Shown here: positions 16,407 to 33,810 of the stretch, one piece after another
Position numbering within the stretch: the first letter of the stretch is position 1
Layout of the letters: every line of letters starts with the position of its first letter
Assembly (NCBI RefSeq): GCF_001597735.1
Contig: NZ_LUTS01000001.1
Location: 248,001 to 312,000 of the forward strand
Source: Neptuniibacter pectenicola
GTDB taxonomy: Bacteria > Pseudomonadota > Gammaproteobacteria > Pseudomonadales > Balneatricaceae
Reading direction: 5' to 3'
DNA: 64,000 bases
Translations under genes and position numbers: made by a program
The notes under the pieces: model-generated
The model's database searches: none
Told to the model about the DNA's origin: nothing
Seen by the model: only the letters and a program-made list of their open reading frames with translations

Positions 16407-19307
16407 ATGCCGTTACAGAATCAGACTCCACTCTCTACGCTGGAGCAAAAAGATGCGTTCATCGCACGTCATATTGGCCCCTCTGCCGCAGAACAACAGG
16501 CTATGCTGGACGAACTAGGTGTAGCTGATCTTGATCAGTTGATAACACAAACAGTCCCTGAATCGATTCAAGTAACCTCACCTATTGCCTTAGATGATAG
16601 CCGTACTGAAGACGAAGTGCTGGCTTACCTTAAATCGGTTGCGCAAAAAAACAAGATCAACACATCGATGATAGGTATGGGTTACACCGATACCATCGTG
16701 CCTAATGTCATTCTGCGTAATGTATTAGAAAACCCAGGCTGGTATACCGCTTATACACCCTACCAGCCGGAAGTATCCCAAGGCCGTTTAGAAGCGATCC
16801 TTAACTTCCAAACCATGATTCTTGACCTCACAGGTTTAGATCTAGCGAACGCCTCACTGCTTGATGAAGCAACCGCTGCCGCTGAAGCGATGACACTGTG
16901 TAAACGTATGTCAAAAGCGAAAAAGGCAAACACCTTCCTCGTCGACAAAAACGTACACCCACAAAACATCAGCGTTATACAAACCCGTGCCGAACCACTC
17001 GGTTATGACGTGGTTGTAGGTGATGTCGCCGAACTGGTCGATCAACATGAGTTTTTTGGTGTATTAGTTCAATACCCGGGCACAACTGGCGATATCAACG
17101 ATTACTCAGCATTGGTTGAAAAAGTACACGCGAAGAAAGCGCTGTTCTGTGCAGCCGCAGACATCATGAGCTTAGTCCTGCTTAAATCACCTGGCGAACT
17201 CGGTGCTGACGTAGTGTTTGGTTGTGCCCAACGTTTTGGTGTACCTATGGGATACGGTGGCCCACATGCGGCTTACTTTGCTACCCGTGATGCTTACAAA
17301 CGTTCCGTACCCGGCCGTATTATTGGTGTGTCTATCGATGCCCGTGGTAATAAAGCCCTACGTATGGCGATGCAAACCCGTGAGCAACATATCCGCCGCG
17401 AAAAAGCCACGTCAAACATCTGTACTGCACAAGTACTGCTAGCCAACATGGCCTCTTTTTATGCGGTTTACCACGGCCCAGACGGTCTTAAAACCATTGC
17501 TGGCCGTATCCACCGTCTAACCGACATTCTCGCTAAAGGCCTACAATCCAAAGGCGTTAAGCTGTTAAATAACAGCTGGTTTGATACCCTCACATTGGAA
17601 GTAGACAACGCAGAAGCGATCTATCAAACAGCCCTTGATGCCGGTATTAATCTACGCAAAATTAGCAACACTCAACTAGGCATGACCTGCGACGAATGCA
17701 CGAACCGTGAGATTATCAATATCTTATGGAACTGCATTTTAGGTGAAGGGCATGGGCTTTATATTGAAGCAATAGATGCCGATCTAACCGCCAATGGCTC
17801 TGACTCTATACCTGCTGCGCTCGTACGTGAATCAGCCATTCTTCAGCACCCCGTTTTCAACAGCTATCACAGTGAAACTGAGATGCTGCGCTACCTTAAG
17901 AAACTGGAAAACAAAGACATCTCCCTCACGCACAGCATGATAGCGTTAGGTTCATGCACTATGAAACTCAACGCAACTGCAGAGATGATCCCAGTGACGT
18001 GGCCTGAGTTTGGCCAACTGCACCCTTTTGCACCGATTGATCAGGCGCAGGGCTATAAACAACTGATTGATGAACTGGAAGATCAGCTAAAAGCGATTAC
18101 AGGGTTCGATGCTATCTGCATGCAGCCTAACTCCGGTGCTCAAGGGGAGTATGCGGGCCTCTTAGCAATTCGAAAATATCATCAATCAAATGGCGATCAC
18201 CACCGCAACATCTGCTTAATCCCAACCTCTGCTCACGGCACAAACCCTGCGTCTGCGGCCCTTGCGGATATGAAAGTCGTACTGGTTAGCTGTGACGATC
18301 AAGGTAATGTTGATGTTGCAGACATGCGTGCCAAAGCCGAGCAGCATAAAGATGACCTTGCCTGCCTCATGATTACCTACCCATCCACCCACGGTGTGTA
18401 TGAGGAAAGTATTTGTGAGATATGCGACATCATCCATGAGAACGGCGGACAAGTTTACATGGACGGCGCTAACCTAAACGCACAGGTGGCAGTCAGCCAG
18501 CCTGCAGCCATTGGTGCCGATGTCTCCCATATGAACTTGCACAAAACATTCTGTATTCCACACGGTGGCGGTGGCCCAGGTATGGGGCCAATCGGTATTA
18601 AAGCGCACCTTGCTCCTTTTGTAGCAAACCACCCAATACAACCGATCGAAGGGCCTAACCCTGAAAACGGTGCAGTATCCGCAGCTCCTTGGGGTAGCGC
18701 CTCCATTCTGCCGATCTCATGGGTTTATATTGCACTGATGGGCGCTAAAGGCCTACGCGCTGCAACCGAAAACGCCATCCTAAACGCTAACTACTTAGCG
18801 AAAAAACTAGGTGAGCACTACCCCGTTCTCTACGCTGGCCGTAATGGTCGGGTTGCCCACGAGTGCATCATCGATATGCGCCCACTAAAAGAGCTTTCCG
18901 GCATTACCGAAGAAGATGTATCTAAGCGTCTAATGGACTTTGGCTTCCATGCGCCGACCATGTCGTTTCCTGTTGCGGGCACACTCATGATCGAGCCGAC
19001 CGAATCTGAATCTAAAGCAGAGTTGGATCGTTTCATCGAAGCGATGGTCACCATTCGCGAAGAGATCAGCCAAGTGCAAGATGGCACAATGGACGCGGAG
19101 AATAACCCGCTAAAACATGCGCCCCATACACTGGAAGACCTCATCGACCCAAACTGGGATCGTCCCTACAGCGTGGCTCAAGCCGCCTTCCCTGTTAAAC
19201 GCCTAAAAGACAGCAAAATCTGGCCAACCGTTAACCGTATCGACAACGTATACGGCGACCGCAACCTATTTTGCTCATGTCTTCCGGTAGAGGATTACGC
19301 TGAGTAA
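16407..19307 (+). CDS. gcvP: glycine dehydrogenase (decarboxylating), P protein
   Basis: A full-length 966-residue fused P protein of the glycine cleavage system. It decarboxylates glycine with PLP and transfers the aminomethyl group to lipoyl-GcvH. The PLP lysine is K713 in [19 protein letters not shown]. The N-terminal half (about 1-460) is the alpha-like domain with [14 protein letters not shown], and the C-terminal half is catalytic. gcvT and gcvH are not adjacent, so gcvP stands alone, as in some marine gammaproteobacteria. It ends at a strong terminator, and the left end of the catabolic island begins 9 bp after its stop. Confidence 0.97.
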
Positions 19308-19315
19308 TACACCGT

Positions 19316-19380
19316 TGTCGGTTTACAATAAAGATTGTGAATCGATATTAAAGATTGTGAATTTCAATAAAGATTGTGAA
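19316..19380 (+). mobile_element. left end of a Tn7-like or Mu-like island, three repeated sites
   Basis: From 19316 the sequence reads TGTCGGTTTACAATAAAG and contains three 17-bp sites of the form ANWWTAAAGATTGTGAA at 19325-19341, 19345-19361 and 19364-19380, spaced 20 and 19 bp. The first 25 bases match the reverse complement of 33740-33764 at 23 positions. Terminal TGT plus tandem 17-22 bp sites is the architecture of TnsB-bound ends. No transposase gene is present between the ends, so mobility is inferred. Confidence 0.6.
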
Positions 19381-19429
19381 AACATCTCCGGTTAAACTAG
19401 GGAAGTATTTACACTGGCGTTGAAATGAC

Positions 19430-19455
19430 AAAACGGGCCTCAGGGCCCGTTTTTC
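19430..19455 (+). terminator. Rho-independent terminator downstream of gcvP
   Basis: ACGGGCC (19433-19439) pairs with GGCCCGT (19444-19450), followed by five T residues. A truncated copy of this element and its 16 bp of upstream sequence recurs at 33781-33810. It lies inside the proposed island end, which complicates the boundary. Confidence 0.9.
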
Positions 19456-19594
19456 GTTTACAGCAGCTAAATATGTTACCGAGAGAAATTATGTGATGGG
19501 ATATTTATCAACGTCAATTAGCAAATTAACCTCTAAAAGCTACGAAATATACCTGTTCAAATTTCAAGCACAGCACATTGATCCACATAAATCG

Positions 19595-20476
19595 CTAAGC
19601 TGACCTCTTAAGCTGACCTGGTGTTACCCCAAGACTCGCTCGAACCACACGCGTTAGATGCGCTTGATCTGAAAATCCGCAGCCATAGGCAACTTCTTTG
19701 ATAGCATAATTTCCTTCCATTAACATTTTTTTTGCTTTTTCTACACGTAACGAAGTAATAAAAGAGTGCGGTGTGCAGCTGAAAGATTCACTGAATTTTT
19801 TGGTAAAAGTCCATAACCCCATACCTAGTAAATTTGCTAAATCTTCAACTCTAAATTTAACGTGTATATGGCTATTTATGTAATCGATTAATAACCTTTT
19901 TTGATGATTGGAAAGCAGGTTGGCTAACGAACATTCTTTGACTATCACATTCGCATAATTCCGAAGTAAATGAACTGCTAGCTGAATCGCTAGTGACTCC
20001 GCATATAAAGTTCCACCCATACTTCCTGCAGCAGCCTCGTTCTGAACTGAGTCAACCAGATTTAACAATACAGGATCATGAAGCTGTAATTCATCATGAA
20101 GGAAAACATCTTTAATTGGCCTATCTAAAACCTCACAAGCAACTTTAGACATGAGCTCATTAGTGATGTAGACATGAGATACATCAATATCTTGAGTCCA
20201 ATACCAATGAGAATCCGATAGCGTGGTCAGTAACGAAATATCACCTGATGAGCATGTTTTTTTTGTCCATTTACCATCAAAGCACCTTTGCATTGGGGTA
20301 TGAGCATTTGTGTATTTAACAATCATGTAGTGATCAATTGGAGGGATGGGAACATCCTGACCTCTATAATGGTAGGCCCGATGGGAAATACCTTCCCACC
20401 CTAAATTTTCACTTGAACTTAATAATCTACCTGGAACCCATTCTGGAAGCTCTTGGGGCTTAATTATATTATTCAT
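19595..20476 (-). CDS. AraC-family transcriptional regulator (island)
   Basis: 293 residues. The N-terminal two thirds is a ligand-sensing domain of the AraC_binding_2 type (motifs near IPPIDHYMIVKY and GDISLLTTLSDSHWYWTQ). The C-terminal about 100 residues form the two-helix-turn-helix DNA-binding domain, with KFRVEDLANLLGMGLWTFTKKF and EVAYGCGFSDQAHLTRVVR. I chose ATG 20476 because AGAGG lies 7 nt upstream, whereas the ATG at 20497 has none. It is the leftmost gene of the catabolic island and probably controls the transporter or catabolic genes. The inducer is unknown. Confidence 0.88.
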   Translation of the reverse strand: MNNIIKPQELPEWVPGRLLSSSENLGWEGISHRAYHYRGQDVPIPPIDHYMIVKYTNAHTPMQRCFDGKWTKKTCSSGDISLLTTLSDSHWYWTQDIDVSHVYITNELMSKVACEVLDRPIKDVFLHDELQLHDPVLLNLVDSVQNEAAAGSMGGTLYAESLAIQLAVHLLRNYANVIVKECSLANLLSNHQKRLLIDYINSHIHVKFRVEDLANLLGMGLWTFTKKFSESFSCTPHSFITSLRVEKAKKMLMEGNYAIKEVAYGCGFSDQAHLTRVVRASLGVTPGQLKRSA

Positions 20477-20591
20477 ATCACAACCTCTGGAGGTCATTAT
20501 TTGTGATTAATAAAAAAACAATAGATTAAGGTCATCCTTAAAATTCTATTATTCTTAGACCTTGATTACCTACATCATAAGAAAGAGCGGC

Positions 20592-22934
20592 CTATAAGGC
20601 AGACCGCCTTTTCTCTTCGCTAAAAATAAATTTTGGTTTAAAAATATAAGCCAAAGCTGGCATTAAGAACAAAGCACTCAGTGCAGACACTGATAGCCAA
20701 ATTCCTATCAAGAGCCCCATTTCCGCCTGAAAGCGTAATGATGAATAAAACCAAACACATACACTTGCAATGAGTACAAGCGCAGTAACCAAAACCCCTC
20801 TACCAGCACAATGAATAGAAGTAGAAATTGATTCTATGTACGAATGTCCTTTTTCATATTCACTTTTAATTCGATCACAGATGTAGAGAGCGTAATCTAC
20901 CCCTAAACCGATGCCTAGTGCAGCTACAGGGACCGTATTGATATTCATCCCTATTCCCTGCCAAGACATAAATGCAAATGTAACCAAATTCGACAGAATA
21001 ACAGGTGCCATAAAGAACATACCGGCAATGCTGGAGCGATATACCGCAATACACATAATGACCAGAATAAACAGAGCCAAAGCAATTGATTGAATTTGCC
21101 CTGACAAAATGACTTCATTTACAGCAGCTATTACACCAATAACTCCACCAGCCAAATGTATCTGGGCCTGATTAACTAGAGGATTGTCTGTGATAAATTG
21201 GTTAATTCTCGCGATCGCAGTCTGAATTGTCTCCCCTTTACGATCTGTAAAGAACAAAGTAACAGAGGCATTTCGGCGTTCCGTATCAACAAACCGGTCA
21301 AGATCACCAGGCTCAGCCGCATTCTCAAACATATACATCAGCTCACCATTCACTAATGTATTTTCACCTAGTTCGTGATAACGAGTATTACCCTCACGAA
21401 GGGTTTTATTAACTTCAGGTAGAATATCAGCAATTGATAAAGTTCCGCCTATCTGAGGCTGCGCTTCCATGTGTGTTTGGAAACGTAGCATAGTGTTAAG
21501 TACTTCAACTTCTTTAACTTGATTCTCTCTTTCTCCTCCCACGACAACGAACATTCGATCAGCACCGGGGAATTTTTTGTTTATCTTCGCTGAATCTTCG
21601 TTGTACTCTGATTCAGGCCATAAGATTGGGCTACCGGGATTTGCGTCACCCACTTTCAATCCGAGAGAGTAATAACCGCAAACCATGAATAATGTCACAG
21701 CTATAAAAACCACTGCATAACGCGCTCTTGTTTCAACAACTTTCACACAAAGATTAAGAACCGGACGAATTAAAATCACATCCAAATTTAAACCATGAGC
21801 ATAAGAGTTTGGTTTTTTGACCCATGAGAGCAAAACAGGTGTCAGTATCACTGCACTTACAGCTACAGTAGATACCCACACAACCGCTAATATAACTAAC
21901 TTTTGCAACAAAGGGATGGGACTAATCGCTACCACCGCCACACAACCTGCATCTGTCGCAATGCCAAGCAATCCAGGACGAAGGAGATCTTTAAGAGTAA
22001 GGCGTGCCGCAATTTTTGAACACAGATTATTGCCTAACAGATCAATTTCTTCGTGAAACCGGGTAATCATTTGCACTGAATGCGAGACTGCTCTCGCAGT
22101 GATCAACATTGCAATTACAACCACCAAGGGATCAAAGTGAATTCCACACAGTTGCGAAATACCTAATGCCCAAATTGCGCTAACAGCTCCAGAAATAAGA
22201 GGTAAAAGTGTACCCCGCCATGTACGATTGATAATGAACAGTAGGACTAGAAAAATAGATAATGCTAGCAATACTAAATTCATCGTTTCAGGTAGGTAGT
22301 GGTTCACCCACCCATAGAGGATAGGGTTACCAACTACACTTACTTCAACAGAATCATCTTCAAATTGTTTAGCCAGTTCATATGCCTGATCAAAAGCTAG
22401 ATTATAATTCAGAAGATCATCAAAGAAGTCGACTGTAATCAGCGTAGCCTTCAAATCCTTAGATACATAAGGGCCGTAAACCAACGGATTTTTAAGAATT
22501 GCTTGCTTGAGTTCGTTAATTTCTTTTTCAGACTGGGGAAGATTTGGCCACATATAAGGCCTACTTTCTATACCCTCGGTTGATGCTTTAACTTCCTTAA
22601 GCTTTTTACCAGCCAATGAATAAATCTGGAATTCATTAATAGCATCAATTTTCAAAAGTCCTTGTGTAATACCCTGAACTTTCTCCAAAACATTGAGATT
22701 AAAAATATCATCATCTTTCGCTACAACCATAAAGGTAATGATGTTTGTACCACCAAAAGTATTTTTAAACTCCTCGTGGGTTTTAATATATTTATGAGAT
22801 GTTGGCTGAAGGTCTTCGAAAATAGTTTTTACATCAATATTAAATGCAGGGTATGACAAAAGTAGTGTAAAAAAACATACAAGAGCTAATACGATTTTTC
22901 TTTTATTTATACACGCTAGCGCAAACTTTTCCAT
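20592..22934 (-). CDS. MMPL/RND-family membrane transporter
   Basis: A 780-residue protein with the RND-type duplicated topology: helix 1 (about 10-28), a large periplasmic loop, helices 2-6 (about 215-370), a second loop, then helices 8-12 (about 610-760). The second half has GIGLGVDYALYICDRI, the signature of MMPL transmembrane segments. This family is found with DUF1302/DUF1329/YCF48 proteins in hydrocarbon, steroid and ketone catabolism loci, where import or trafficking of hydrophobic substrates is suspected. It begins 5 bp after the YCF48 gene stop. ATG 22934 is preferred over GTG 22946, with GGTG about 6 nt upstream. Confidence 0.88.
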   Translation of the reverse strand: MEKFALACINKRKIVLALVCFFTLLLSYPAFNIDVKTIFEDLQPTSHKYIKTHEEFKNTFGGTNIITFMVVAKDDDIFNLNVLEKVQGITQGLLKIDAINEFQIYSLAGKKLKEVKASTEGIESRPYMWPNLPQSEKEINELKQAILKNPLVYGPYVSKDLKATLITVDFFDDLLNYNLAFDQAYELAKQFEDDSVEVSVVGNPILYGWVNHYLPETMNLVLLALSIFLVLLFIINRTWRGTLLPLISGAVSAIWALGISQLCGIHFDPLVVVIAMLITARAVSHSVQMITRFHEEIDLLGNNLCSKIAARLTLKDLLRPGLLGIATDAGCVAVVAISPIPLLQKLVILAVVWVSTVAVSAVILTPVLLSWVKKPNSYAHGLNLDVILIRPVLNLCVKVVETRARYAVVFIAVTLFMVCGYYSLGLKVGDANPGSPILWPESEYNEDSAKINKKFPGADRMFVVVGGERENQVKEVEVLNTMLRFQTHMEAQPQIGGTLSIADILPEVNKTLREGNTRYHELGENTLVNGELMYMFENAAEPGDLDRFVDTERRNASVTLFFTDRKGETIQTAIARINQFITDNPLVNQAQIHLAGGVIGVIAAVNEVILSGQIQSIALALFILVIMCIAVYRSSIAGMFFMAPVILSNLVTFAFMSWQGIGMNINTVPVAALGIGLGVDYALYICDRIKSEYEKGHSYIESISTSIHCAGRGVLVTALVLIASVCVWFYSSLRFQAEMGLLIGIWLSVSALSALFLMPALAYIFKPKFIFSEEKRRSAL

Positions 22935-22939
22935 AGTGA

Positions 22940-24049
22940 TCACCAAACCAACTTATCACTTAACTCAACGAATTTGTTATATTTCGGGCTAAATTTTCCA
23001 ACATTTGCCCCAACTGCAACATATTCCCCATCAACTTGATTAATTTCCGTATGCCAAGACAAATCCATCTTATCGAAGATGCCGCTTTTCAGGTTTTCTA
23101 GGCTACTATCAATTTCGACCCAGGCACCTTTATTTCCGACAGAGAACCAAACATCCCTACTTTCATCCCAAATTATATCCATTAAGTGTTCAGAGGTTTT
23201 TTCCCCACTAGTTATTCCTCTTTTCCAAGTTGTGCCACCATCTTCGGTTGTGATGATTAAGCCATCCAAACCTACGGCCACCCCATTGAATTGGTCTTTG
23301 AATTCTATAGCCATTAAGCTGCTTTCAATATCAAAATCGAGTTCAACTAAGTCCCATGAGGCACCATCATTATCACTTATTAAAATTGCTCCAAACTCAC
23401 CTACAGCAATAACTTTACTATCATTAATTTTAATAATGTCATTTAAGATAACATCTTCATCTTCACGCATTTTTTCCCAGGAATGCCCATAATCTCTTGT
23501 TCTAAGGATCGTACCAAACTCACCAACTGACCAAGCTTCACCATTAATATATGTATGAACGCGGAGTAATTTATTTGCAACGTCATTTTTAGGAACAATA
23601 ACTTCCCTCCAGGTTTCTCCAGAATCCTCTGTTATGAAAACAACCCCTGAATTACCTACCAAAACTGCTTTATTGTTATCCCAAGCTGATACATCTTGAA
23701 AATGATTTACAACATTAGTTTTTTGAACACGCCAGGTAGAACCGGAATCATTTGATCGCAAAATTTTTCCGTAGCTCCCTACCAACCAGATATTTTCACT
23801 ATCTACGACATCAACTCCATATATATTATCTCTTGGTTCGATAGCTGGCTTTTCAACTTTCTCAATTGTGACAGTTGGTTTAACAAAAACCCCTGCCCAC
23901 AATAAACCGCTAACTATCAGCCAAGGTATGGTTGAAATAACCGTTTTACTAACACTAAATTTATTTTTCTGTGATAAATCACATTTGTAATTATTATTCG
24001 ACATACTAAAACCAGGAGAAAACCTGCTAAGCAGTGAATTAATCACCAC
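22940..24049 (-). CDS. YCF48-related beta-propeller protein
   Basis: 369 residues with one N-terminal membrane segment (about 36-56, TIPWLIVSGLLWAGVFV) that anchors or exports it. About six blades follow of the type GxxGxIxxTxDGGxTW (for example GSYGKILRSNDSGSTWR and GEFGTILRTRDYGHSWE). This is the YCF48/PSII assembly-factor fold used as a periplasmic scaffold. In Gram-negative degraders such proteins sit beside MMPL and DUF1329 genes, so a partner role in an envelope transport complex is likely. The exact start is uncertain; ATG 24004 is also possible. Confidence 0.85.
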   Translation of the reverse strand: MVINSLLSRFSPGFSMSNNNYKCDLSQKNKFSVSKTVISTIPWLIVSGLLWAGVFVKPTVTIEKVEKPAIEPRDNIYGVDVVDSENIWLVGSYGKILRSNDSGSTWRVQKTNVVNHFQDVSAWDNNKAVLVGNSGVVFITEDSGETWREVIVPKNDVANKLLRVHTYINGEAWSVGEFGTILRTRDYGHSWEKMREDEDVILNDIIKINDSKVIAVGEFGAILISDNDGASWDLVELDFDIESSLMAIEFKDQFNGVAVGLDGLIITTEDGGTTWKRGITSGEKTSEHLMDIIWDESRDVWFSVGNKGAWVEIDSSLENLKSGIFDKMDLSWHTEINQVDGEYVAVGANVGKFSPKYNKFVELSDKLVW

Positions 24050-24082
24050 CTAGCAGCAAATTAGAGGAAATACTTCTTTTAT

Positions 24083-25360
24083 TTATCTCGCAATTTTGAG
24101 CAATTGCTTCAAGCTGACATCGTTCTCTTCTACTCCCGCAGGGTTAGACTTCATATTTGAAGACCAAGTAGTCGAGAAATTAGCTTTGTAATCAATTACG
24201 TGTCCAACCACTGGCATTACAGCCTTGTAGCCATCATCACCAATGTCAGGTCTGTTCTGGAATATAAAAAATTTCCAGAATTTCCCATTTTGGTCATAAG
24301 CTTCACCTAGGTAAGGACGAGGCCAGTCTTTCTCCATATACACAACTTTTTTGCTATACGGGTGACCTTCTGGCGGTGTGCCCTCGATTACATAAACTTC
24401 TCGAGGTTCCCACTCGATATGCTTGGCTGGGTAATAGAAAGGTTTTTCACCCAATCCTACACTTGGAAACTCTGCATGAGATCCTTCCTTACTCTTATCA
24501 ACACTCAGCTCTGGACTGTGCGCAATTGCAAAGACCCAACGTGTATCAACCAACTTGGTAGATTTATATTTAGTAGGAATTGCATCCCAGATATCCCAAT
24601 CATCATAGAGCTGCACTGTGCCGCCGATAGGGTCCATCCAAGCACTACCCGTCAGTCGTCTTGCACGTCTAACCGATTTTAAATACGCCCATGTATCATC
24701 TGGCTTGGCAGAACTCGGGTCATTGTACCGAATAGAAAAAGTTCCCAGGCCTTTGATGTCTTGAGGACTTTGAGCAACTAGAATGGTTTTCTGCATAATG
24801 TCGCCATCACCCTCCTGGACCGGACCACCATCTAAGCGGCCTTCCATGTAATAGCGGCGTGACCACCAACGCTGAACACGCTCAACACCTTCTTCACCAT
24901 CGATAAAGACAAATGAAATATCACGCAGATCCATGGTTGCACCATAAGTTGGAGATCGCAGGTTCCAGATCAATTTATCACCCGCATGAGGATCATTTGG
25001 ATCAATATCCTGCGGATCAAAGAACATACCAGAGGTCCAACCTGACACCTGCCTTGTAGCAGGATCAAATTTCACCTTGCCTTTACCCTGTTGTGTGGCT
25101 TCCATATATTTGGAATCCATTTCAATTTTTTCAGAGTGACGGATTTTCATGGTTAAACCACGTTCTTTAATCATCCACTCAAGCCTTTCGGGGATCATGT
25201 CGCCTACACGCTTTCCTTCAAACAGCGTATCTTTTACCGTGTCAAAGTTAGCTTTAGAAATTACAGTACCTGCAGGTAGTTCGGCCGCTTGCGCTGTTCC
25301 AACAACAGCCCAACACAATAAAACAGCCTGAGATATTTTCTTCAAATATCCAATATTCAT
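24083..25360 (-). CDS. DUF1329 family outer membrane lipoprotein-sorting-like protein
   Basis: 425 residues with a signal peptide (about 1-25) and no lipobox. The family pattern includes LPAGTVISKANFDTVKDTLFEGK at the mature N-terminus and DWPRPYLGEAYDQNGKFWKFF near the C-terminus. The fold is LolA/LolB-like, and DUF1329 proteins are thought to be periplasmic carriers of hydrophobic molecules. It sits between the DUF1302 and YCF48 genes with short gaps (about 20-35 bp), an operon of four genes read leftwards. Confidence 0.9.
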   Translation of the reverse strand: MNIGYLKKISQAVLLCWAVVGTAQAAELPAGTVISKANFDTVKDTLFEGKRVGDMIPERLEWMIKERGLTMKIRHSEKIEMDSKYMEATQQGKGKVKFDPATRQVSGWTSGMFFDPQDIDPNDPHAGDKLIWNLRSPTYGATMDLRDISFVFIDGEEGVERVQRWWSRRYYMEGRLDGGPVQEGDGDIMQKTILVAQSPQDIKGLGTFSIRYNDPSSAKPDDTWAYLKSVRRARRLTGSAWMDPIGGTVQLYDDWDIWDAIPTKYKSTKLVDTRWVFAIAHSPELSVDKSKEGSHAEFPSVGLGEKPFYYPAKHIEWEPREVYVIEGTPPEGHPYSKKVVYMEKDWPRPYLGEAYDQNGKFWKFFIFQNRPDIGDDGYKAVMPVVGHVIDYKANFSTTWSSNMKSNPAGVEENDVSLKQLLKIAR

Positions 25361-25379
25361 AATTTTTAGCCTCGTATAA

Positions 25380-26969
25380 TTAGAATTGGCGAGTTAACGT
25401 GAAGGTCAACTGGTTATCGTCACCGAACCAATCGAAGAATGAAGCTGAGTTTTCAAGAGCACCCAGTGGGTTTCTACTTGGCACATCTCCAGCAGCAACA
25501 TGTTTCTGATCACCATCTGTCCACCAGAGGTTAGCTTCACCTTTGAATCGCCAATCATCGCCAAAGACCATTTCAACAGCAGGAATAGCAAATCCACCGC
25601 CATTACTAAGGTCGGTACCCAGCACTAAAGACGGATTAATTGTGTCGCGGTTGAAATTGAGTAAAGTGAAGAAGGTTAGGTAGGTTGTATGTTCTTTCTT
25701 TTTCGCTCCGAAAGAAGCAAATTCTACGATTTCATCATTTTCGTCATAATCGACAATCCAGGTATCAAACAGCTGGATACTTGTAAGCGAAGGACGATTG
25801 GTACCAAGCCAGCTAGATAAATCTAATTCTTTATCTAAGCGCACCATAGTGACCAAAGTATCTTTTTCTTTTACCCCAGCCCAACCAGGTAATGATGATT
25901 GCAGAGCACCATAGTTATATGGTTTGTCAGGAATAAATGCGAATTCAGCACTCAGTGTAGAATCAATGCTTTGGCTATATGTATTCGCTGTAAAGCCAAA
26001 TACATCTATTTCAGGGAACACCCAGTCACCAAGAACCTGATTCTTTGCAAGCTCACCGTAAGACTGCATAGACGTTACACCAAACGCATCTGGCACTGCA
26101 GAATTGACCGCAGGGTTTATGATCGGTTGAGGGTTAAAGGTTTTTAAGTAAGCAAATGAGTAACCAATTGAGCCTGCTGTACCATTCCAACGCAGACCAA
26201 AGGTAGGGTCATCCCAGTCACCGTTCGGATTATCTTCGTTGTAGTCAGTAAATGCAGTGAAATCTACGCCTCGATATGGATGAGGTATCCAGCGACCGCC
26301 TTCAATATTGAAATTACTTCCCATATCTTCAGCACGGTCCCACCCCGGTCTAACGTAGAAATTTAAATTGCCGTCCAGTTCAGGAATATCGACATTAAAA
26401 TTTGCCAGAATCAGGGGCTTACGCCAGTCTTCATTATTTTCGAAAAAAAGTCGCTTCCTGTAATCAAACCCGTGAACCAAGTCCAGGGCCTGGAAGAAAT
26501 CACTTTCCCCCCAAACCAATTGTTGTTTCCCTAACCGTACGTCTACACGATCGTTCAAAGCAAAATCTACGTAAAACTCACGTAGGAAATCACCAAAACT
26601 ATCCGTATCGTACTGATCCATATAATCTTGGGTTGTAGAAAAACCACCCGGAGACTGAAGCCGAGTCATTCTCTCAAGATCATCGAGATAACTTGTCTGA
26701 TGCTCTTTATCGATTCGTCCGATAGCCTTCCAGAATACATCTCCAGTTTGAGCATCCATCTCTAACTGTAAGGATGTTCTTGCCATTCCCAGATCACCCT
26801 CATCATTTCCTGAGGTTTCGTCCTGGTCTTCAAGAAACATAGAAGCTTGTGCACGAACGTATCCACTAAAGTTGACACTGTAATCATCACTTGCATGCGT
26901 TGCTACGCTAAGCAACAGCCCTGCGCTTACCAGAAAAACACTGGCTTTTTTTTGATTATTTTTCACCAT
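25380..26969 (-). CDS. DUF1302 family outer membrane beta-barrel protein
   Basis: 529 residues with a signal peptide (1-26) and alternating beta strands through the mature part, ending QLTFTLTRQF with a C-terminal Phe, a strong barrel signal. DUF1302 proteins are outer membrane channels frequently paired with DUF1329 in hydrocarbon and steroid degraders. The motif LGKQQLVWGESDFFQALDL is the family core. It is the first gene of the four-gene operon and lies about 100 bp from a candidate sigma-54 promoter (27073-27088). Confidence 0.9.
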   Translation of the reverse strand: MVKNNQKKASVFLVSAGLLLSVATHASDDYSVNFSGYVRAQASMFLEDQDETSGNDEGDLGMARTSLQLEMDAQTGDVFWKAIGRIDKEHQTSYLDDLERMTRLQSPGGFSTTQDYMDQYDTDSFGDFLREFYVDFALNDRVDVRLGKQQLVWGESDFFQALDLVHGFDYRKRLFFENNEDWRKPLILANFNVDIPELDGNLNFYVRPGWDRAEDMGSNFNIEGGRWIPHPYRGVDFTAFTDYNEDNPNGDWDDPTFGLRWNGTAGSIGYSFAYLKTFNPQPIINPAVNSAVPDAFGVTSMQSYGELAKNQVLGDWVFPEIDVFGFTANTYSQSIDSTLSAEFAFIPDKPYNYGALQSSLPGWAGVKEKDTLVTMVRLDKELDLSSWLGTNRPSLTSIQLFDTWIVDYDENDEIVEFASFGAKKKEHTTYLTFFTLLNFNRDTINPSLVLGTDLSNGGGFAIPAVEMVFGDDWRFKGEANLWWTDGDQKHVAAGDVPSRNPLGALENSASFFDWFGDDNQLTFTLTRQF

Positions 26970-27072
26970 GACTGCCTACATTTTATATTTGTTATGTTTA
27001 TACAAATTAAGACTTTGTCTGCCAGACCTCAGGAATGCATATGCATTCACGGCCATCAGCAACAGGTGAACA

Positions 27073-27088
27073 TACAATTACTATGCCA
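27073..27088 (-). promoter_or_regulatory. candidate sigma-54 promoter of the DUF1302 operon
   Basis: The minus strand reads TGGCATAGTAATTGTA, with GG and G(T) in the correct -24/-12 register; the -12 element is TTGT rather than TTGC. It is about 105 bp upstream of the DUF1302 start and about 75 bp downstream of the palindrome at 27163-27199, a plausible enhancer distance. The neighbouring gene encodes a sigma-54 activator. Confidence 0.5.
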
Positions 27089-27162
27089 ACAAACAAACAA
27101 ACTTATATCTACTTGTTTTTATTGAATATATTCAAAGCAATAAAATAAAAAAAAACCTGTTT

Positions 27163-27199
27163 CGTTCGATAATCAAACGCAACGTTTTATTATCGAACG
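27163..27199. promoter_or_regulatory. 17-bp inverted repeat, likely enhancer site of the sigma-54 activator
   Basis: Arms at 27163-27179 (CGTTCGATAATCAAACG) and 27183-27199 match as inverted repeats at 16 of 17 bases with a 3-bp spacer. It lies between the divergent DUF1302 operon and the AcoR-like regulator gene. The rest of the 607-bp gap 26970-27576 is AT-rich with no gene. Confidence 0.7.
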
Positions 27200-27576
27200 C
27201 ATACTTTTGTGGACAATTCATCCAGAGGGGTAGCTATTGTAAAAGATAGAAATACAGGCTATAAAACTTAAGAACCAACCAATAGGTTTAATACAAACAA
27301 TCATATTGAATAATACAAATATGCTACTCTTGAAATAGCCTTAAAGAACACCATACTGAGGTATTATGGAATAAAAAAGATAACGGCGATTCAGTTACGT
27401 AGCTATTTTGTTTAAGATCGCCTACTCATACGCAATCAACTACAAGGATGTTAAAACGATTTATTGTTAGCGCTAATGAGAATTTGTGAAATTAGCGGTT
27501 TGAATCAAAGCTTACATTTCTGGCTAGAAGTGACCTCACATGATTACCTCAACAAAAATAAAAAGAGATTAAATAA

Positions 27577-29592
27577 GTGGCACGCAGTCATCAGAAGTAC
27601 GCAGCAAACTACACTAATCCTGCGGTCTTTTCTCAAAAAGAAATTGATCAGGCTTGGGATAGGTTTCTCTGTGGTGTTGAGAAATCTGAACCCATTAAGG
27701 TAAGAAGCAGTATTATTAATTCTTGGGAGCGTTGCCAATCTAATGGTGTCAACCCGTCGACTAAACTTGCTCCAATTGTAGCCTCTCAGGAGGCCTTAGA
27801 TTTAACCCGAATTCAAAACCGCGACTTACTTCTCTGCTCTCAGTCCACAATTGATCTGGCAAAAGTACTGCTTAACGATTTAGAAACCGTTTTATTTATT
27901 ACCGACAGAAACGCACTTAACATCGAGATTGTTGGCGATCCAAGAACATTAGATAGTGCAAGAGATATCAGTTTGCTACCAGGAAGCGGCTGGCAAGAAA
28001 TATTCTCTGGATCCAATGCGGTAGGAACAGCAATAGAATCCAACCTTCCCACTCAAGTACATGGCCAAGAGCACTTTTGCGAGGGTTTTAAACCTTGGAG
28101 TTGTACCGCAGCTTGTATTTATGACCCTTATGATAAACAACGAATTGGGGTGATTGATATATCAGGTTTATCCGCAAACTTTGACCGTTTTCACCTCCCT
28201 TTGGTTGTTTCGTGGGCCAACACTATTCAGGCTGAACTTGAGGCATTAAATACTCTACGCTGGGCAAAAATTGAAGAAGCTATTCTTGCAGATACCAAAT
28301 TAAACAGCGCTGATGATTTCCTTCTCTTCGACAAGCAGGGCCGATTTATCAGCTCAAATACCAACGACGAAGAGCTTTTAAGAAGCTTTATTCCTCAGTA
28401 TAAAAATAATAAGAGATTCCGGTTGAATCTGGAAAGATATGGTGGTGAGGAAAGAGAACTTGAATCTCTTTCATTTAATTCTTCAATGGATAGTTGGATT
28501 CAGCCAATCGCAGACCCTAAACGTAAAAGTGAATTGTTAGGTTTCAAAGTCCACCTACCAGGTAGCGACACAATAGCTAAAGCTTCCCACAAATATACTC
28601 ATACAGAAAAAAACGTTTCAAGATCTAGTGATTCATCCGATGTCAGCGCCCTTAATCTAGGATCATCACTCGATAACGATAAAGTAAAATTAGCGGCTAA
28701 ATCACCTTTGCCGATTTTATTACTTGGAGATACTGGGTCAGGTAAGGAATATGTTGCGAAAGCTGTTCACGCTGAATACGCCAGACCGGATGCCCCTTTT
28801 GTAGCCTTAAATTGTGGAGCTTTTTCTAAAGATTTACTCAATGGGGAATTATTCGGGTATATCGAAGGCGCATTTACTGGCGCAAAAAAAGGCGGTATGG
28901 CTGGCAAAATTGAAGCTGCCAATGGAGGTATTCTTTTTCTTGATGAAATTGGAGAAATGCCATTAGAAATACAACCAGTATTCTTGCGAGTACTGCAAGA
29001 AATGGAAATTTATCGCGTAGGCGAAACGAAACCCAGACCTGTAAAATTCAAACTCATAGCAGCTACCAATATTGATTTAAAGCAAGCCGTTGCTGAAGGC
29101 CGCTTCCGAAAAGATCTATATTATAGAATCGCCAATATCGTACTCAAACTCAATCCACTCTCCGAACGGAAGGAAGAAATACCCGGGTTAATTGAATCAA
29201 TTTTGTATCGGATTAGCTTTGAATATAAAACTGACCGAAAGTTTGTTTCTGATGAACTCCTCGAAAAATTACAGTCACTCCCATGGCCTGGTAACATTAG
29301 GGAACTTTCTAATGTTCTTGAATATATGGTTTTTATGTCAACTGGAAATGTATTAATGACAACTGACCTCCCTCCAGAATACATAGAAGACGAGAACATC
29401 ATTCATACTGATTTAAAAATCATTAAACAATTACTCCCTGAAAATGAAAAACTTATTAGCCTGGAAGACGCAGAAAAAACCAATATTGCAATAGCGATAA
29501 AAACGAATAATGGAAATATGACCAAAGCAGCAAAATTACTGGGCATAGCAAAAAGCACACTTTATCAGAAAGTAAAAAAATATAGCCTATAG
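27577..29592 (+). CDS. AcoR-like sigma-54-dependent transcriptional activator
   Basis: 671 residues. The N-terminal part (about 60-210) is a GAF-like sensor of the AcoR type ([31 protein letters not shown]). An AAA+ domain follows, with Walker A GDTGSGKE at about 383-390, the sigma-54 contact loop GAFTGA at 431-436 and Walker [14 protein letters not shown] at about 451. The C-terminus is a Fis-type helix-turn-helix ([21 protein letters not shown]). It starts at GTG 27577 with a weak upstream AGAG. As an enhancer-binding protein it should switch on -24/-12 promoters in response to an aromatic, ketone or alcohol-like ligand, most likely the DUF1302 operon and perhaps the BVMO operon. Confidence 0.93.
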
Positions 29593-29743
29593 AGCAAATC
29601 GAACAAAAAACATTCAAAAAACCAAAAAATCAACAATCTATTCCTTTCTTTTTGAAGCACCTTGTAATCGTGAACTTCATACGTATCCTCTTTTATAGAA
29701 AAATGTGAAGATTCATTTTAAGCTAGGCAGGTGACACGTTTTT

Positions 29744-29786
29744 GGCGAGCTAATTTGTTCAGTACCCCTCAGCCTTTTAGCTCACC
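29744..29786 (+). terminator. hairpin after the activator gene
   Basis: GGCGAGCTAA (29744-29753) pairs with TTAGCTCACC (29777-29786) at 9 of 10 positions across a 23-nt loop. A CCACTTTTAAGTGG palindrome follows at once. This may end the activator transcript, although the T-run is short. The stretch 29593-30041 has no gene. Confidence 0.35.
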
Positions 29787-30041
29787 ACTTTTAAGTGGCA
29801 ATACAACTAACTAAAAAGTACAGCATCTAATTTAGGACAGTATAAAACAAAAACCTTATAAACTTTATTAATAGAAACTAAATAACTGCCAAACAAAACA
29901 TTCCTAAGCCATCATAACAACTAAAATTAATTCAAAGAAAACAAAGAAATTTTCAATTATTTGATCCGCATAAAAGGTAGAATTCTTTCGACATTAGAAA
30001 CCTTCTACATAAAAATTTTACTTAGATTTTAAGTTTTTTTG

Positions 30042-30098
30042 TTATGGTGGGCTGGGCTTTTCGGTCGCCCCCGACTGCTTGGCCTGCCACCCTTTTTT
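30042..30098 (+). ncRNA. unassigned structured RNA element, copy 1
   Basis: TTATGGTGGGCT opens the element and GCCTGCCACCC plus TTTTTT closes it. TGGTGGG pairs with CCTGCCA, and an inner GTCG/CGAC hairpin lies in the loop. The same opening, loop landmarks (CTTGG) and pairing recur at 30264-30317. The stem plus T-run makes it terminator-like. It lies 360 bp upstream of the BVMO gene in a gene-free leader. I do not recognise it as a known riboswitch class. Confidence 0.55.
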
Positions 30099-30119
30099 AG
30101 GGGGAGGGTTCTCATGTCG

Positions 30120-30199
30120 AATTAGAGATATTAGTTATTTAGTAAATTTTATTCTTTCTCCCCAGAAAGAATACTCTTAAGTCACTTAAATCTCTAATT
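30120..30199 (+). repeat. nested inverted repeats between the two RNA elements
   Basis: AATTAGAGAT (30120-30129) is the reverse complement of ATCTCTAATT (30190-30199). Inside lies a perfect hairpin, ATTCTTTCT-CCCC-AGAAAGAAT (30151-30172). Together they could fold as a stem enclosing a second stem, placed exactly between the two copies of the RNA element. Confidence 0.55.
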
Positions 30200-30263
30200 A
30201 ACAATTTTCATCAGCAAGATTTGTACTCCTCTCTACAAGCAATTATACACTTAGTTGTTTGAC

Positions 30264-30317
30264 TTATGGTGGGCTAAGTTTTAGGTTTTCTCCGAATTCT
30301 TGGTCCGCCATCTTTTT
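30264..30317 (+). ncRNA. unassigned structured RNA element, copy 2
   Basis: This begins TTATGGTGGGCT, identical to copy 1 over 12 bases, and ends TCCGCCATCTTTTT. ATGGTGGG pairs with TCCGCCAT, keeping the stem of copy 1 with compensatory changes (for example A-T for the lost pair and T.G/G.T swaps). It is about 145 bp upstream of the BVMO start. Either or both copies could be attenuators in the BVMO leader. Confidence 0.55.
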
Positions 30318-30460
30318 ACTCCCAGACATCACTTATTGATTCAAAAGAAACATTTTTTTATTCAAGACCATTCTGTGGGCAACTTATATATTCATAACTG
30401 TTATTTCAACCAATATTATTTTTACAAAGCTCTAAATAATCATAAAAATGGAGAATCTAT

Positions 30461-32089
30461 ATGAATGCAGCAGCTGATAAAGTAACTGTATTAGATGCAA
30501 TGGTGATTGGTGCTGGTGTTGCGGGTATGTACCAACTTTATAATTTAAGAAAAATGGGCCTAAAGGTACGTGCTTACGAAACAGCAACCGGTGTAGGAGG
30601 TACCTGGTATTGGAATCGCTACCCAGGTGCTCGTTTTGATTCTCAAGCAGAGATCTATCAATACTGGTTTGATGAAGAGATGTATAAGTCTTGGAAACCC
30701 AGCGAGCGTTTCCCTGCTCAACCTGAAACTGAAGAATGGCTAAATTATGTTGCCGACCGTCACGAACTGAAAAAAGACATCCAATTCAGTACTCGTATTA
30801 AGTCTGCTCACTATGACGAAGAGACTAATAGATGGAATGTAGTTACTGATTCGGGAGAGCTAATCAATACTCAGTTTTTACTTGCTTGCTGCGGCATGCT
30901 GTCAGCTCCAATCGAAAACCGCTTTAAGGGCCAAGAAACGTTCCAAGGCGAAACATATCTAACCGGAAAATGGCCGAAAGACGCGAAAAGTTTAACTGGA
31001 AAACGCGTAGCTGTAATTGGTACAGGAGCTACAGGTATACAGGTAATTCAGACAATAGCTCCAGAAGTTAGCTCGATGAAAGTTTTTTGTCGAACTCCTC
31101 AATACGCTATTCCAATGAAAAACCCAAAATATTCTGAACAAGACTGGGCCTATTGGTGTGAACGTTATGATGAGACAAAAGACAAAGTAATGAACTCTTT
31201 TGCCGGTTTTGACTATGATTTCACAGCAAAACCATGGCATGAATCTACTGAAGAAGAGAGACTCGCTGTCCTTGAGAAACATTGGGAAGAAGGCTCACTT
31301 TCATTATGGTTAGCTAGTTACTCAGAAATTTTCTTTGATGAAGATATTGCTGAAGAAGTCTCAGAATTCGTACGAAATAAAATGCGTCAACGCTTAGGAA
31401 ATGATGAAAAACTTTGTAACCTTTTAATTCCAACGAAAAATGATTACACCTTCGGTACTCACCGTGTTCCATTAGAATCGAACTACCTTGAAGTCTACCT
31501 ACAAGATAATGTAGAGCCAGTAGATTGCAGAACTACTCCCATCCAAGAATTTGTTCCTGAAGGTATCAAAACTGAAGATGGAACTATTCATGAATTCGAT
31601 GTGATTATTTTAGCGACCGGTTTTGATGCAGGTTCAGGCGCTCTTAGTCGTATTGATTTTCGAGGTCGAGATAACCGTTCATTGAAAGATCAATGGCAGC
31701 AAGAAATTACCACGGCAATGGGCCTCCAAGTACATGGGTACCCAAACCTATTTACAACAGGCGCGCCTCTTGCTCCATCAGCTGCGCTCTGCAATATGAC
31801 AACTTGTCTTCAGTATCAAGTTGACTGGATCACAAATTGTATAGATTTTGCACTAAAAAACGGTAAGAAAACAATAGAAGTATCCAAAGAAGTAGAAAAT
31901 GCATGGGTCAAGCATCACGATGAAGTGGCTTCAAAAACGTTGGTTGTAAAAACAGACTCATGGTACATGGGATCCAATGTAGAAGGTAAACCTCGCCGAT
32001 TATTGTCATACATTGGTGGTGTTGGCGATTATCATAATAGATGCGATGAAATTGCTGAAAAAGGCTATCCAGGATTCAAAATAGATTAA
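30461..32089 (+). CDS. Baeyer-Villiger-type flavin monooxygenase
   Basis: 542 residues of the class B flavoprotein monooxygenase family. The FAD Rossmann motif GAGVAG is near residue 18, followed by GVGGTWYWNRYPGARFD. The NADPH Rossmann motif GTGATG is at 187, and ATGFDAG comes near 387. The BVMO fingerprint FXGXXXHXXXWP occurs at 161-172 as FQGETYLTGKWP, with Leu167 in the His position. Such enzymes insert oxygen next to a ketone, giving an ester or lactone. The adjacent MetX-like hydrolase would cleave that ester. Substrate is unknown; the context of hydrophobic transport genes suggests a cyclic or long-chain ketone. GGAG precedes the ATG. Confidence 0.9.
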   Translation: MNAAADKVTVLDAMVIGAGVAGMYQLYNLRKMGLKVRAYETATGVGGTWYWNRYPGARFDSQAEIYQYWFDEEMYKSWKPSERFPAQPETEEWLNYVADRHELKKDIQFSTRIKSAHYDEETNRWNVVTDSGELINTQFLLACCGMLSAPIENRFKGQETFQGETYLTGKWPKDAKSLTGKRVAVIGTGATGIQVIQTIAPEVSSMKVFCRTPQYAIPMKNPKYSEQDWAYWCERYDETKDKVMNSFAGFDYDFTAKPWHESTEEERLAVLEKHWEEGSLSLWLASYSEIFFDEDIAEEVSEFVRNKMRQRLGNDEKLCNLLIPTKNDYTFGTHRVPLESNYLEVYLQDNVEPVDCRTTPIQEFVPEGIKTEDGTIHEFDVIILATGFDAGSGALSRIDFRGRDNRSLKDQWQQEITTAMGLQVHGYPNLFTTGAPLAPSAALCNMTTCLQYQVDWITNCIDFALKNGKKTIEVSKEVENAWVKHHDEVASKTLVVKTDSWYMGSNVEGKPRRLLSYIGGVGDYHNRCDEIAEKGYPGFKID

Positions 32090-32126
32090 CGGTTTTTACA
32101 TCCTCTATCTAAAGTAGGTGCTTGAT

Positions 32127-33173
32127 ATGAGTATTTATTACACTCAAGAAATCCATGGTCCTTATGAATTAATAAATATCGGTGATTTACAACTTGAGGA
32201 AGGCGGTAATATTCCAAATTGTATGCTTGCTGTAGCCACATTCGGAGAGCTTAACCCTGAAAAAAATAACGCTATTCTTATTCCTACTTGGTATTCAGGT
32301 ACCAATAAGATTATGGAACAGGTGTACATCGGGGAAGGGAGAGCTTTAGACCCGTCTGAATATTTCATCATTATTGTCAATCAAATAGGTAATGGTCTTT
32401 CAACGTCCCCAAGTAACTTTTCCGGGAGTTTAAAAGGGGCACGATTCCCACTTGTGCGCATAGGGGACGATGTCAGAGCTCAACATAGGCTTCTAACAGA
32501 GCACTATGGTTTAGAGAGCCTTTCTTTAGTCTTTGGTGGTTCCATGGGAGCTCAACAAAGCTATGAATGGGCCGTTCGCTATCCTGATTTTGTGAAACGT
32601 GCAGCGTCTTTGGCTGGAACAGCTAAAAACACAGAACATGACTTCATCTTTGCAGAAACGTTGATTGAAGCCATCGAATCAGATCCTAACTTTAAGGATG
32701 GTTTTTACAATCTCGGCTCCGAAGTGGCTGAAGGTTTAGAACGCCATGCAAAACTGTGGACAGTGATGGGGTGGAGCACTGATTTTTTTGCTAAAAAGAG
32801 GCATAAAGATCTTGGGCACGCCAACATCAGGGGCTTTGTTAATGATTTCATGATTGAATACTTCGCGCAAATGGATCCGAACAATCTACTTAGAATGATT
32901 TGGAAATGGCAAAGAGGTGATGTCAGTCGTCATACAGCAGGTGACCTTCCCGCTGCGCTTGGCAGGATCAAAGCCAAAACGTATGTAATGCCAATCAGTC
33001 ATGATATGTTCTTCACTGTAGATGATTGCCGTACTGAACAGCAAATGATTCCAGGAAGTGAATTGCGACCGATAATATCCATTGATGGACACCTTGGCCT
33101 TTTTGGTACTGACGAACAGATGATACATCAAGTGGATGAATATCTTGATGAATTACTAAGCATGGATCTCTAA
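32127..33173 (+). CDS. alpha/beta hydrolase, MetX-like, probable esterase for the BVMO product
   Basis: 348 residues with an alpha/beta hydrolase fold related to homoserine O-acetyltransferase. The nucleophile elbow GGSMGAQQSYEWAVRYP gives Ser139. A late Asp lies in the SHDMFFTVDD region, and His322 in IDGHLGLFG completes the triad. Relatives in catabolic loci act as esterases rather than in methionine synthesis; no met genes are near. ATG 32127 has AGGTG about 7 nt upstream and is preferred to the GTG at 32118. It follows the BVMO by 37 bp and ends before a terminator at 33309, so the two form an operon. Confidence 0.85.
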   Translation: MSIYYTQEIHGPYELINIGDLQLEEGGNIPNCMLAVATFGELNPEKNNAILIPTWYSGTNKIMEQVYIGEGRALDPSEYFIIIVNQIGNGLSTSPSNFSGSLKGARFPLVRIGDDVRAQHRLLTEHYGLESLSLVFGGSMGAQQSYEWAVRYPDFVKRAASLAGTAKNTEHDFIFAETLIEAIESDPNFKDGFYNLGSEVAEGLERHAKLWTVMGWSTDFFAKKRHKDLGHANIRGFVNDFMIEYFAQMDPNNLLRMIWKWQRGDVSRHTAGDLPAALGRIKAKTYVMPISHDMFFTVDDCRTEQQMIPGSELRPIISIDGHLGLFGTDEQMIHQVDEYLDELLSMDL

Positions 33174-33308
33174 TTTTTTAAAGGAAGGAATTCCAACTTA
33201 ACTCCTAGTAACAGGGATATTCTAAAACATTAGTCAGACCTCATAGTTAAAGAAATGGGAGGTCTAACCAAGTTGTTGCGCTTTCTTGTTACTGGTTTTG
33301 AAAGCAAA

Positions 33309-33345
33309 AAAGAGTCATATGGTTTTACCTATGGCTCTTTTCGTT
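33309..33345 (+). terminator. terminator of the BVMO-esterase operon
   Basis: AAAGAGTCATA (33309-33319) pairs with TATGGCTCTTT (33330-33340), with one T.G pair, and TTCGTTT follows. It is 136 bp after the esterase stop. Confidence 0.75.
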
Positions 33346-33700
33346 TCCTGAGCCTGATTACTGCTTTCTACCAACACTGCTGATGGGCTAAGGGCTGATA
33401 GGAGTAAGGCTGAAGCGATGGGTATTCTTCTTAATTGTGCTGTGCGTTAAGTGAGCGACCTAAATATTTTATAACCTTCAGTGTCTATCTGAGTATTTTT
33501 ACATACTTAGGGGCGTCAATAGAGAACTTTGCTTGATTTGACCCAACTGATTCAGGTGGAAGGTGGCAATAATGTCGTCACCAATGTAGCCTTTATGTCC
33601 TTCTTTGAAAGGTACTCTAAGCTATTTGGAAAACCTCATGAATTAAGGCTACTTTTCAACAATAGCCTTCCAAATAAATTGTGTAAATATAGTAAGAATT
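33346..33700 (+). pseudogene. gene-poor stretch with two short open fragments
   Basis: No intact gene is visible here. Two short plus-strand open stretches stand out: one ending DRSKAEAMGILLNCAVR before a TAA near 33450, and one from 33529 containing TQLIQVEGGNNVVTNVAFM and SFFERYSKLFGKP. Neither matches a family I can name. Their position beside the right island end suggests decayed genes, perhaps mobility genes, but this is only positional. Confidence 0.2.
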
Positions 33701-33764
33701 TATCAACTTTTATTGAAATAAAGCTTCACGGTATACTTATCACAATCTTTATTGTAAGCCTACA
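33701..33764 (-). mobile_element. right end of the Tn7-like or Mu-like island
   Basis: Read on the minus strand from 33764, the sequence starts TGTAGGCTTACAATAAAG and matches the left end over 25 bases with 2 mismatches. A second, weaker 17-bp site (33701-33717, minus-strand TTCAATAAAAGTTGATA) lies inside. The ends thus face each other across 14.4 kb holding the whole catabolic cluster. Confidence 0.6.
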
Positions 33765-33810
33765 TTGTCGGTTTACAATAGCGTTGAAATGACAAAACGG
33801 GCCTCAGGGC
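33765..33810 (+). repeat. collapsed direct copy of the gcvP downstream region
   Basis: 33765-33780 equals 19315-19330 and 33781-33810 equals 19417-19446, joined without the 86 bp that separates them at the left. The copy stops inside the gcvP terminator stem. It immediately abuts the right island end, so it marks the outer flank of the island. Confidence 0.8.

Follow-up and report, generated by a model that had tools for sequence, protein, structure and literature searches.

Introduction

Tn7 and Tn7-like transposons, which use TnsABC together with TnsD or TniQ, are characterized by TGT tips, arrays of ~20-bp sites and insertion just after a conserved gene. Elements of the Tn5053/Tn402 type carry 25-bp TGTC ends with ~19-bp sites. 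We analyzed a 64,000-nucleotide stretch of the Neptuniibacter pectenicola genome (contig NZ_LUTS01000001.1, positions 248,001 to 312,000; hereafter the window), in which a Baeyer-Villiger monooxygenase (BVMO)/presumed esterase gene cluster framed by Tn7-like ends (positions 19316-33764; hereafter the window element) lies directly 3' of gcvP, the gene for glycine dehydrogenase. Findings described below indicate that the window element is very probably a tns-free derivative of a Tn7-like group that attaches at the gcvP 3' end.

Attachment sites named for Tn7-like elements include glmS, tRNA genes, parE, guaC, yciA, ffs and rsmJ (PMC11406308). The open-licence literature searched, supplements excluded, contains no mention of gcvP in this role, which is weak evidence of absence, and nothing in the open-licence literature searched brings Baeyer-Villiger and Tn7-like together. 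A Pseudomonas aeruginosa island with IS6100 at its 5' end is described as inserted inside gcvP, which is not the same site (PMC12607901).

Results

Ends of the window element

Two inverted 25-bp ends, both starting with TGT, lie at 19316-19340 on the + strand (TGTCGGTTTACAATAAAGATTGTGA) and 33764-33740 on the - strand (TGTAGGCTTACAATAAAGATTGTGA). They are identical at 23 of 25 positions and face each other across 14.4 kb, exactly as an initial annotation made from the DNA letters had proposed. The left tip is 8 bp past the gcvP stop codon (19307 to 19316), which fits the Tn7-like habit of inserting at a set spacing from a conserved attachment gene. Three copies of TAAAGATTGTGAA start at 19329, 19349 and 19368 of the left end, and their steps of 20 and 19 bp agree with that annotation as well. 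Its further claim that the right end carries more than one repeat did not hold, as a 14-mer scan of the window found only one site there at <=2 mismatches. In an alignment with the corresponding end of congener G004 (genomes are denoted by working labels, the window genome being G000), which we take to be Neptuniibacter marinus ATR 1.1 (NZ_LUTR01000003.1), the right end has lost the stretch between two copies of TCACAATCTTTATTGTAA, and with it two of three sites.

The same 14-mer (<=2 mismatches) matched 4 positions in the window, all within the element ends, compared to a mean of 0.66 and a maximum of 3 in 100 shuffles. A 15-mer (<=1 mismatch) matched 5 positions in the whole 3.63-Mb draft genome, 4 of them inside the ends; the single other near-copy, with 1 mismatch, is at G000:C46:22151-22165. 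These sites are therefore not the widespread intergenic repeat that the annotation had named as grounds for doubt. The 25-mer end pattern (<=1 mismatch) matched 5 of 116 family genomes, and a reversed control pattern matched none.

Autonomous relatives at the gcvP site

Ends of the same kind surround a tns module in congener G009, which carries a complete 46,389-bp element starting 9 bp past the gcvP stop and bounded by a perfect TTTCA duplication. Its two 18-bp tips are identical, and its left 25-mer and the left 25-mer of the window element agree at 22 of 25 positions. This element encodes TnsB (E 5e-33 against Tn7 TnsB, PDB 7pik), TniB/TnsC, TnsD (a full frame) and a TniQ that scores below the Pfam cut-off. 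In the TnsA position stands a 312-aa protein with no Pfam, PDB or NCBIfam match, whose tblastn alignments fall at the TnsA positions of G135, G063 and G483.

Elements in G135 and G063 likewise lie directly 3' of gcvP, but their end sequences differ from those of the window element. That of G135 measures 32,910 bp, has an AGTTG duplication and encodes TnsA (PF08722), AAA/TnsC, TniQ and TnsD as assigned by Pfam, with TnsB assigned by tblastn; that of G063 measures ~23.3 kb and has a TTTAG duplication. A complete 35,753-bp element with a GTTTG duplication was found in G483 (loci L220-L222), a genome outside the family and of the same class. There, the three-site end of a second element follows directly after the first, placing two full tns sets in tandem downstream of gcvP; the far end of the second element was not found. 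An element that enters next to a resident one can give rise to several ends (PMC8649781), and in this case of serial insertion later elements appear to have entered between gcvP and earlier ones. 5-bp target duplications also accompany elements of G066 and G058, described below.

The TnsD of this group is encoded downstream of gcvP in G009, G135, G063 and G483 (two copies), with a fragment in G058. The exception is G107, where a partial TnsD match is on a contig other than that of gcvP; in G007, TnsD is on a small contig where gcvP was not found. When the class was searched with a TnsD profile at E<=1e-60, 1 of 369 genomes matched, so the gcvP-site group is not common at that cut-off. In each of the three complete elements examined with PADLOC, a defence-type gene lies between the gcvP-side end and tnsA (Table 1). 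The G009 element also carries metal-type genes, e.g. an E1-E2 ATPase and a multicopper oxidase.

Survey of gcvP 3' sites

The survey comprised 133 gcvP copies from 107 genomes and took in the first 110 bp past each stop; stop positions were rechecked and none was suspicious. The copies derive from 138 gcvP rows in 110 genomes, five of which (G132:C43, G067:C283, G092:C37, G092:C312 and G110:C38) lacked the 3' end or ran off the contig and were left out. A copy passed the three-site test if a 13-mer occurred three times with <=2 mismatches at steps of 16-25 bp. Twelve of the 133 copies passed, that of the window included, and the same 12 passed on repeat. Among the controls, 2 of 517 stretches further downstream passed, each consisting of a simple tandem repeat of 6 bp, and none of 665 shuffles did. 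We counted 11 of the 12 as convincing and one (L124, G020) as doubtful. Two ends failing the script, a displaced one in G004 (L089) and one with diverged sites in G135 (L074), were identified by eye. The 13 accepted ends represent 11 genomes and 5 of 16 genera, and in both G066 and G100 they follow each of the two gcvP copies. Ends directly 3' of gcvP thus recur in several genera, with tips 5-12 bp past the stop in the ten family copies placed (window included) and 8 bp past it in G483.

The repeats are short and intergenic, as would be expected of regulator-binding sites downstream of gcvP in a region of otherwise ordinary chromosomal DNA. We regard this explanation as extremely improbable: the repeats are inverted, mark both junctions, and in relatives stand at the tips of elements with target duplications. 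Moreover, the end site has just one further near-copy in the genome, and 121 of the 133 gcvP copies fail the three-site test.

Absence of tns genes and mobility

No tns genes were found in the window element, as initially annotated: the eight cargo genes tested match other Pfam families, and the Tns proteins of G009, G135 and G063 find no match in it at E<=1. The window element therefore has the traits of a tns-free derivative, namely ends matching those of an autonomous element and cargo with no tns genes found. Its tns-free state and the G009 relative support the annotation's view of a non-autonomous or decayed element with Tn7-like ends.

In the window genome, TnsD had no match at E<=1e-8, and the search for a cognate TnsB (E<=1e-10) returned only a 30%-identical protein. 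The latter is part of a separate Tn7-like set on G000:C149 (L076 5085-10644) comprising TnsA, TnsB, TniB and TniQ by Pfam. Mobilization by this set was considered and judged unlikely: its TnsB shares ~30% identity with the G009 protein, and C149 contains no near-copy of the end site. A Dsr1 gene starts ~1.6 kb beyond the set (L076 12256-12999), and the TnsB match in G003 is close in strength to that in G000. Because a single right-end site remains and no cognate transposase was found, the window element is, judging from its sequence, probably immobile now. Likewise, "decayed" fits better than "moves", since the window element has neither a target duplication nor two of the right-end sites, and searches of its genome returned no cognate TnsB or TnsD; movement of the cargo as a unit, the other half of the initial proposal, is hypothetical.

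Shared cargo and mosaic history

The same cargo lies in the same order between the same two kinds of end in G004, where each end has three sites. Among the other genomes of the genus searched, only G004 has this cargo at the gcvP site, and sites lacking the cluster exist (e.g. G003, with an end and no cargo, and G005, G006 and G008, with no end after gcvP). Conservation of the cluster at this site in all relatives, which the annotation had named as counter-evidence, is thus not what we observed.

Nucleotide identity between the window and G004 is 98.6% for the AraC gene and 97.4% for the MMPL gene, compared to 89.8% for the compared part of gcvP. At four-fold sites, identity descends from AraC (98.3%) and MMPL (93.0%) through BVMO (82.5%), esterase (76.6%), YCF48 (73.6%) and DUF1302 (73.1%) to gcvP (65.7%, 547 codons), DUF1329 (46.1%) and the sigma-54 gene (38.6%). 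In 400-bp steps it ranges from 54.9 to 99.8%, with the lowest steps also holding gaps, and it climbs from ~89% to 98% near the left end. Strict vertical inheritance of the whole element was rejected, given that identity is patchy both in 400-bp steps and at four-fold sites. We read these patterns as suggesting that part of the element was exchanged between the window species and N. marinus after their split, and that other parts may have been replaced from more distant sources. The sigma-54 activator gene (27577-29592) stands out from its neighbours by a much greater divergence from G004 and may have been replaced.

The window element and that of G004 are not the sole tns-free metabolic islands at the gcvP site, as G066 contains another (L223 91-18355, G066:C9), which measures 18,265 bp and is bounded by a perfect TTGAT duplication. 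No tns genes were detected in it, with weak matches only (E 0.19-0.77). Its cargo comprises a DctM transporter, an NMT1-type protein, a DHDPS-family protein and a LysR regulator, so that comparable ends surround other cargos in relatives, as the annotation had envisaged. It also carries an IS110-type transposase and a GGDEF/EAL protein.

These islands raise the question of whether the window element belongs to a class of living non-autonomous elements, tns-free islands with working ends that are moved in trans by an incoming autonomous, gcvP-targeting relative. The three sites at each end in G004, the transporter/DHDPS-type island of G066 with its intact duplication, and the AraC-MMPL identity in excess of that of gcvP, which points to exchange after the species split, all argue for it. 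We nevertheless consider it rather unlikely. G000, G004 and G066 have no TnsD match, and no TnsB match other than the 30%-identical one of G000; the window element retains a single right-end site; and the high identity is confined to patches of the element, a pattern expected from homologous recombination. Insertion of an autonomous element that then lost its tns genes in place would moreover yield the same picture as mobilization in trans.

Cargo genes

Coordinates of the cargo and of the other features are summarized in Table 1.

Table 1. Features of the window element and its surroundings, and defence-type genes of autonomous relatives
Feature	Position	Strand	Basis or comment
gcvP (glycine dehydrogenase); presumed attachment site is its 3' end	16407..19307	+	Pfam GDC-P, GcvP2_C
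gcvP-proximal end: TGT tip and three TnsB-type sites	19316..19380	+	sequence; layout common to G003, G004, G009, G100
Left-end putative TnsB-type sites	19329-19341, 19349-19361, 19368-19380	+	repeat match
Hairpin with T run, terminator-like, inside proximal end	19431..19454	.	read from sequence
AraC-type regulator	19595..20497	-	Pfam HTH_18
MMPL/RND-type transporter	20592..22946	-	Pfam MMPL
YCF48/BNR-repeat protein	22940..24049	-	Pfam PSII_BNR
DUF1329 protein, LolA-like match too	24083..25360	-	Pfam DUF1329
DUF1302 protein	25380..26969	-	Pfam DUF1302
Sigma-54 dependent activator, divergent allele compared to G004	27577..29592	+	Pfam Sigma54_activat, HTH_8
BVMO, phenylacetone-monooxygenase-like	30461..32089	+	PDB 1w4x; Pfam FMO-like
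Alpha/beta hydrolase, presumed esterase	32118..33173	+	Pfam Abhydrolase_1; NCBIfam NF005757 (MetX-related) above cut-off
Stretch from esterase to right end, no long open frame	33174..33739	.	aligns to G004 with indels
Distal end: TGT tip and single intact site	33740..33764	-	two of G004's three sites missing
Stub of another gcvP-proximal end: tip 33766-33780 without repeat sites, joined to hairpin-region copy 33781-33809	33766..33809	+	
Dsr1 (G009)	L025 7477-11295		PADLOC
Ppl-like (G135)	L074 14122-16908		PADLOC
DitA-like (G063)	L075 12635-13882		PADLOC

The BVMO belongs to the same family as phenylacetone monooxygenase (PDB 1w4x), which it matches over residues 11-540 with E 3e-136. Since the two are close, a ketone-to-ester-to-alcohol route is likely by family for the window cargo; the ketone pathway proposed in the initial annotation is a prediction from family assignment. 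At E<=1e-80, this BVMO was found in 7 of 116 family genomes. BVMO, esterase and AraC genes occur together in G005, G075, G114 and G066, and a sigma-54 activator accompanies BVMO and esterase in G007.

Beyond the island, at 33810-35800 of the window, two genes, one of them of the EamA type, separate it from a flank common to G003 and G004; neither had a match in the fetched gcvP regions of these two genomes.

Solo ends, scars and the origin of the island

Remains of ends without an intervening island were observed in several relatives. G003 retains a gcvP-side end and hairpin, G002 only a tip-like scar after gcvP, and G001 and G010 one copy of AATTAAGTTGGTTAA, which in G100 and G101 is the repeated motif of three-site ends. 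A 5,031-bp element in G058, with an ATAGT duplication, has only the C-terminal part of TnsD recognizable, 88% identical to that of G063. In the window itself, the stub of a second gcvP-side end begins one base outside the right end, and 19417-19445, a portion of the hairpin region of the left end, equals 33781-33809 outside the right end; the initial annotation noted neither feature.

Inner gcvP-side sequence is likewise repeated just outside the far end in 4 of the 5 elements tested. The duplicated hairpin region spans 39 bp (95% identity) in the window, 42 bp (98%) in G004, 315 bp (91%) in G135 and 109 bp (92%) in G063; G009 has matches of 10-11 bp only. Loss of the cargo by recombination between these copies would result in a solo end such as that of G003. 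As for their origin, the outer copy possibly represents the remains of an earlier element, or the inner copy may have been captured from the host terminator. The end stub is on the gcvP side of the element in G004 and beyond the far end in the window. A palindromic REP-like sequence separates stub and element in G004 (L022).

Several observations weigh against reading the window element as an inserted derivative of the gcvP-site group. It is flanked by ACCGT on the left and TTGTC on the right, with no 5-bp target duplication, and its tips differ at 2 of 25 bases. G004 has no target duplication either, and its element starts 51 bp past the gcvP stop rather than a few bases. With the duplication missing from both copies, insertion as one unit can only be presumed. 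No tns remnants were found between the esterase gene and the right end; a 40-residue TniQ match in G004 (E 0.02-0.04) was tried as such a remnant and taken as chance. Nucleotide identity to G004 falls below the value for gcvP in the sigma-54 gene (71.5%) and the DUF1329 gene (83.8%). The BVMO/esterase stretches fetched from G005, G007, G066, G075 and G114 contain no gcvP, and in G005, G075, G114 and G066 gcvP is on contigs other than that of the BVMO cluster. The presence of BVMO and esterase in these five other family genomes with no adjoining gcvP indicates that the cluster core is independent of the window element. Finally, the genomes compared represent one per species, and that of the window is a draft in 203 contigs.

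The missing duplication and unequal tips are what would be expected if the two ends stemmed from separate insertions and the cargo between them had never moved as a unit. The additional solo ends and stubs, both nearby (33766-33780) and in G003, G002 and G063, point the same way, as does the placement of the G004 stub on the gcvP side of the element instead of the far side. This origin appears quite improbable to us, because G004 has the same cargo, order and two kinds of end, and because identity to G004 rises close to the left end. The missing duplications and stub positions are most simply explained by post-insertion rearrangement, with two unrelated ends as the alternative.

Discussion

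Taken together, these findings support the view that the window element is a tns-free derivative of a Tn7-like group attaching downstream of gcvP. Based on known Tn7 biology, TnsD of the group would read and bind the gcvP end and bring in TnsABC, which would join the element ends a few bases past the stop codon and leave gcvP intact. TnsB of the G009 type would bind the sites of the window element, and we infer that the window copy arrived as one unit. The derivative would have carried the BVMO/esterase cluster together with transporter-type and regulator genes. It would later have lost two right-end sites, apparently via recombination between repeated sites, and in a genome where no cognate transposase was found it would now probably persist as a fixed metabolic island.

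In a broader picture, the DNA just past gcvP could serve as a dock for a Tn7-like clade whose passengers fall into two classes. Autonomous elements would bring a defence gene (Dsr1, Ppl, DitA) placed between tnsA and the end next to gcvP, whereas metabolic islands with similar ends and no tns genes would be mobilized in trans upon arrival of an autonomous element and shuffled by recombination between the repeated ends and hairpins. We put this forward tentatively, as on balance it seems unlikely.

Our results suggest that Tn7-like elements attach at gcvP and that several end-sequence families do so, in five genera of one family and in a single genome from a different family of the class. Metabolic islands can persist at this site without any transposition gene. 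Surveys whose boundary search scans outward from tnsB, as described in PMC8649781, miss tns-free islands, and metabolic cargo of Tn7-like elements may therefore be undercounted. A scan for repeat arrays after attachment genes would find such islands.

Compared to Tn7 and Tn7-like elements, the window element shares the TGT tips, the ~20-bp site array (in its left end) and the position just after a conserved gene, and its relatives additionally share the 5-bp duplication and defence-type cargo. It differs from them in having neither tns genes nor a duplication, in having three sites on the left and one on the right, and in its attachment gene, gcvP. The gcvP-site element of G009 resembles it in ends and insertion point, and differs in its tns genes, Dsr1 and metal-type genes. 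Unlike elements of the Tn5053/Tn402 type, the autonomous relatives described here have TnsD and, in the case of G135, a TnsA supported by Pfam. With respect to cargo, the clusters of G005, G075, G114 and G066 have, as in the window, a BVMO gene beside alpha/beta hydrolase and AraC genes, whereas the window cluster is set apart by its frame of transposon ends and by the addition of MMPL, YCF48, DUF1329, DUF1302 and sigma-54 activator genes.

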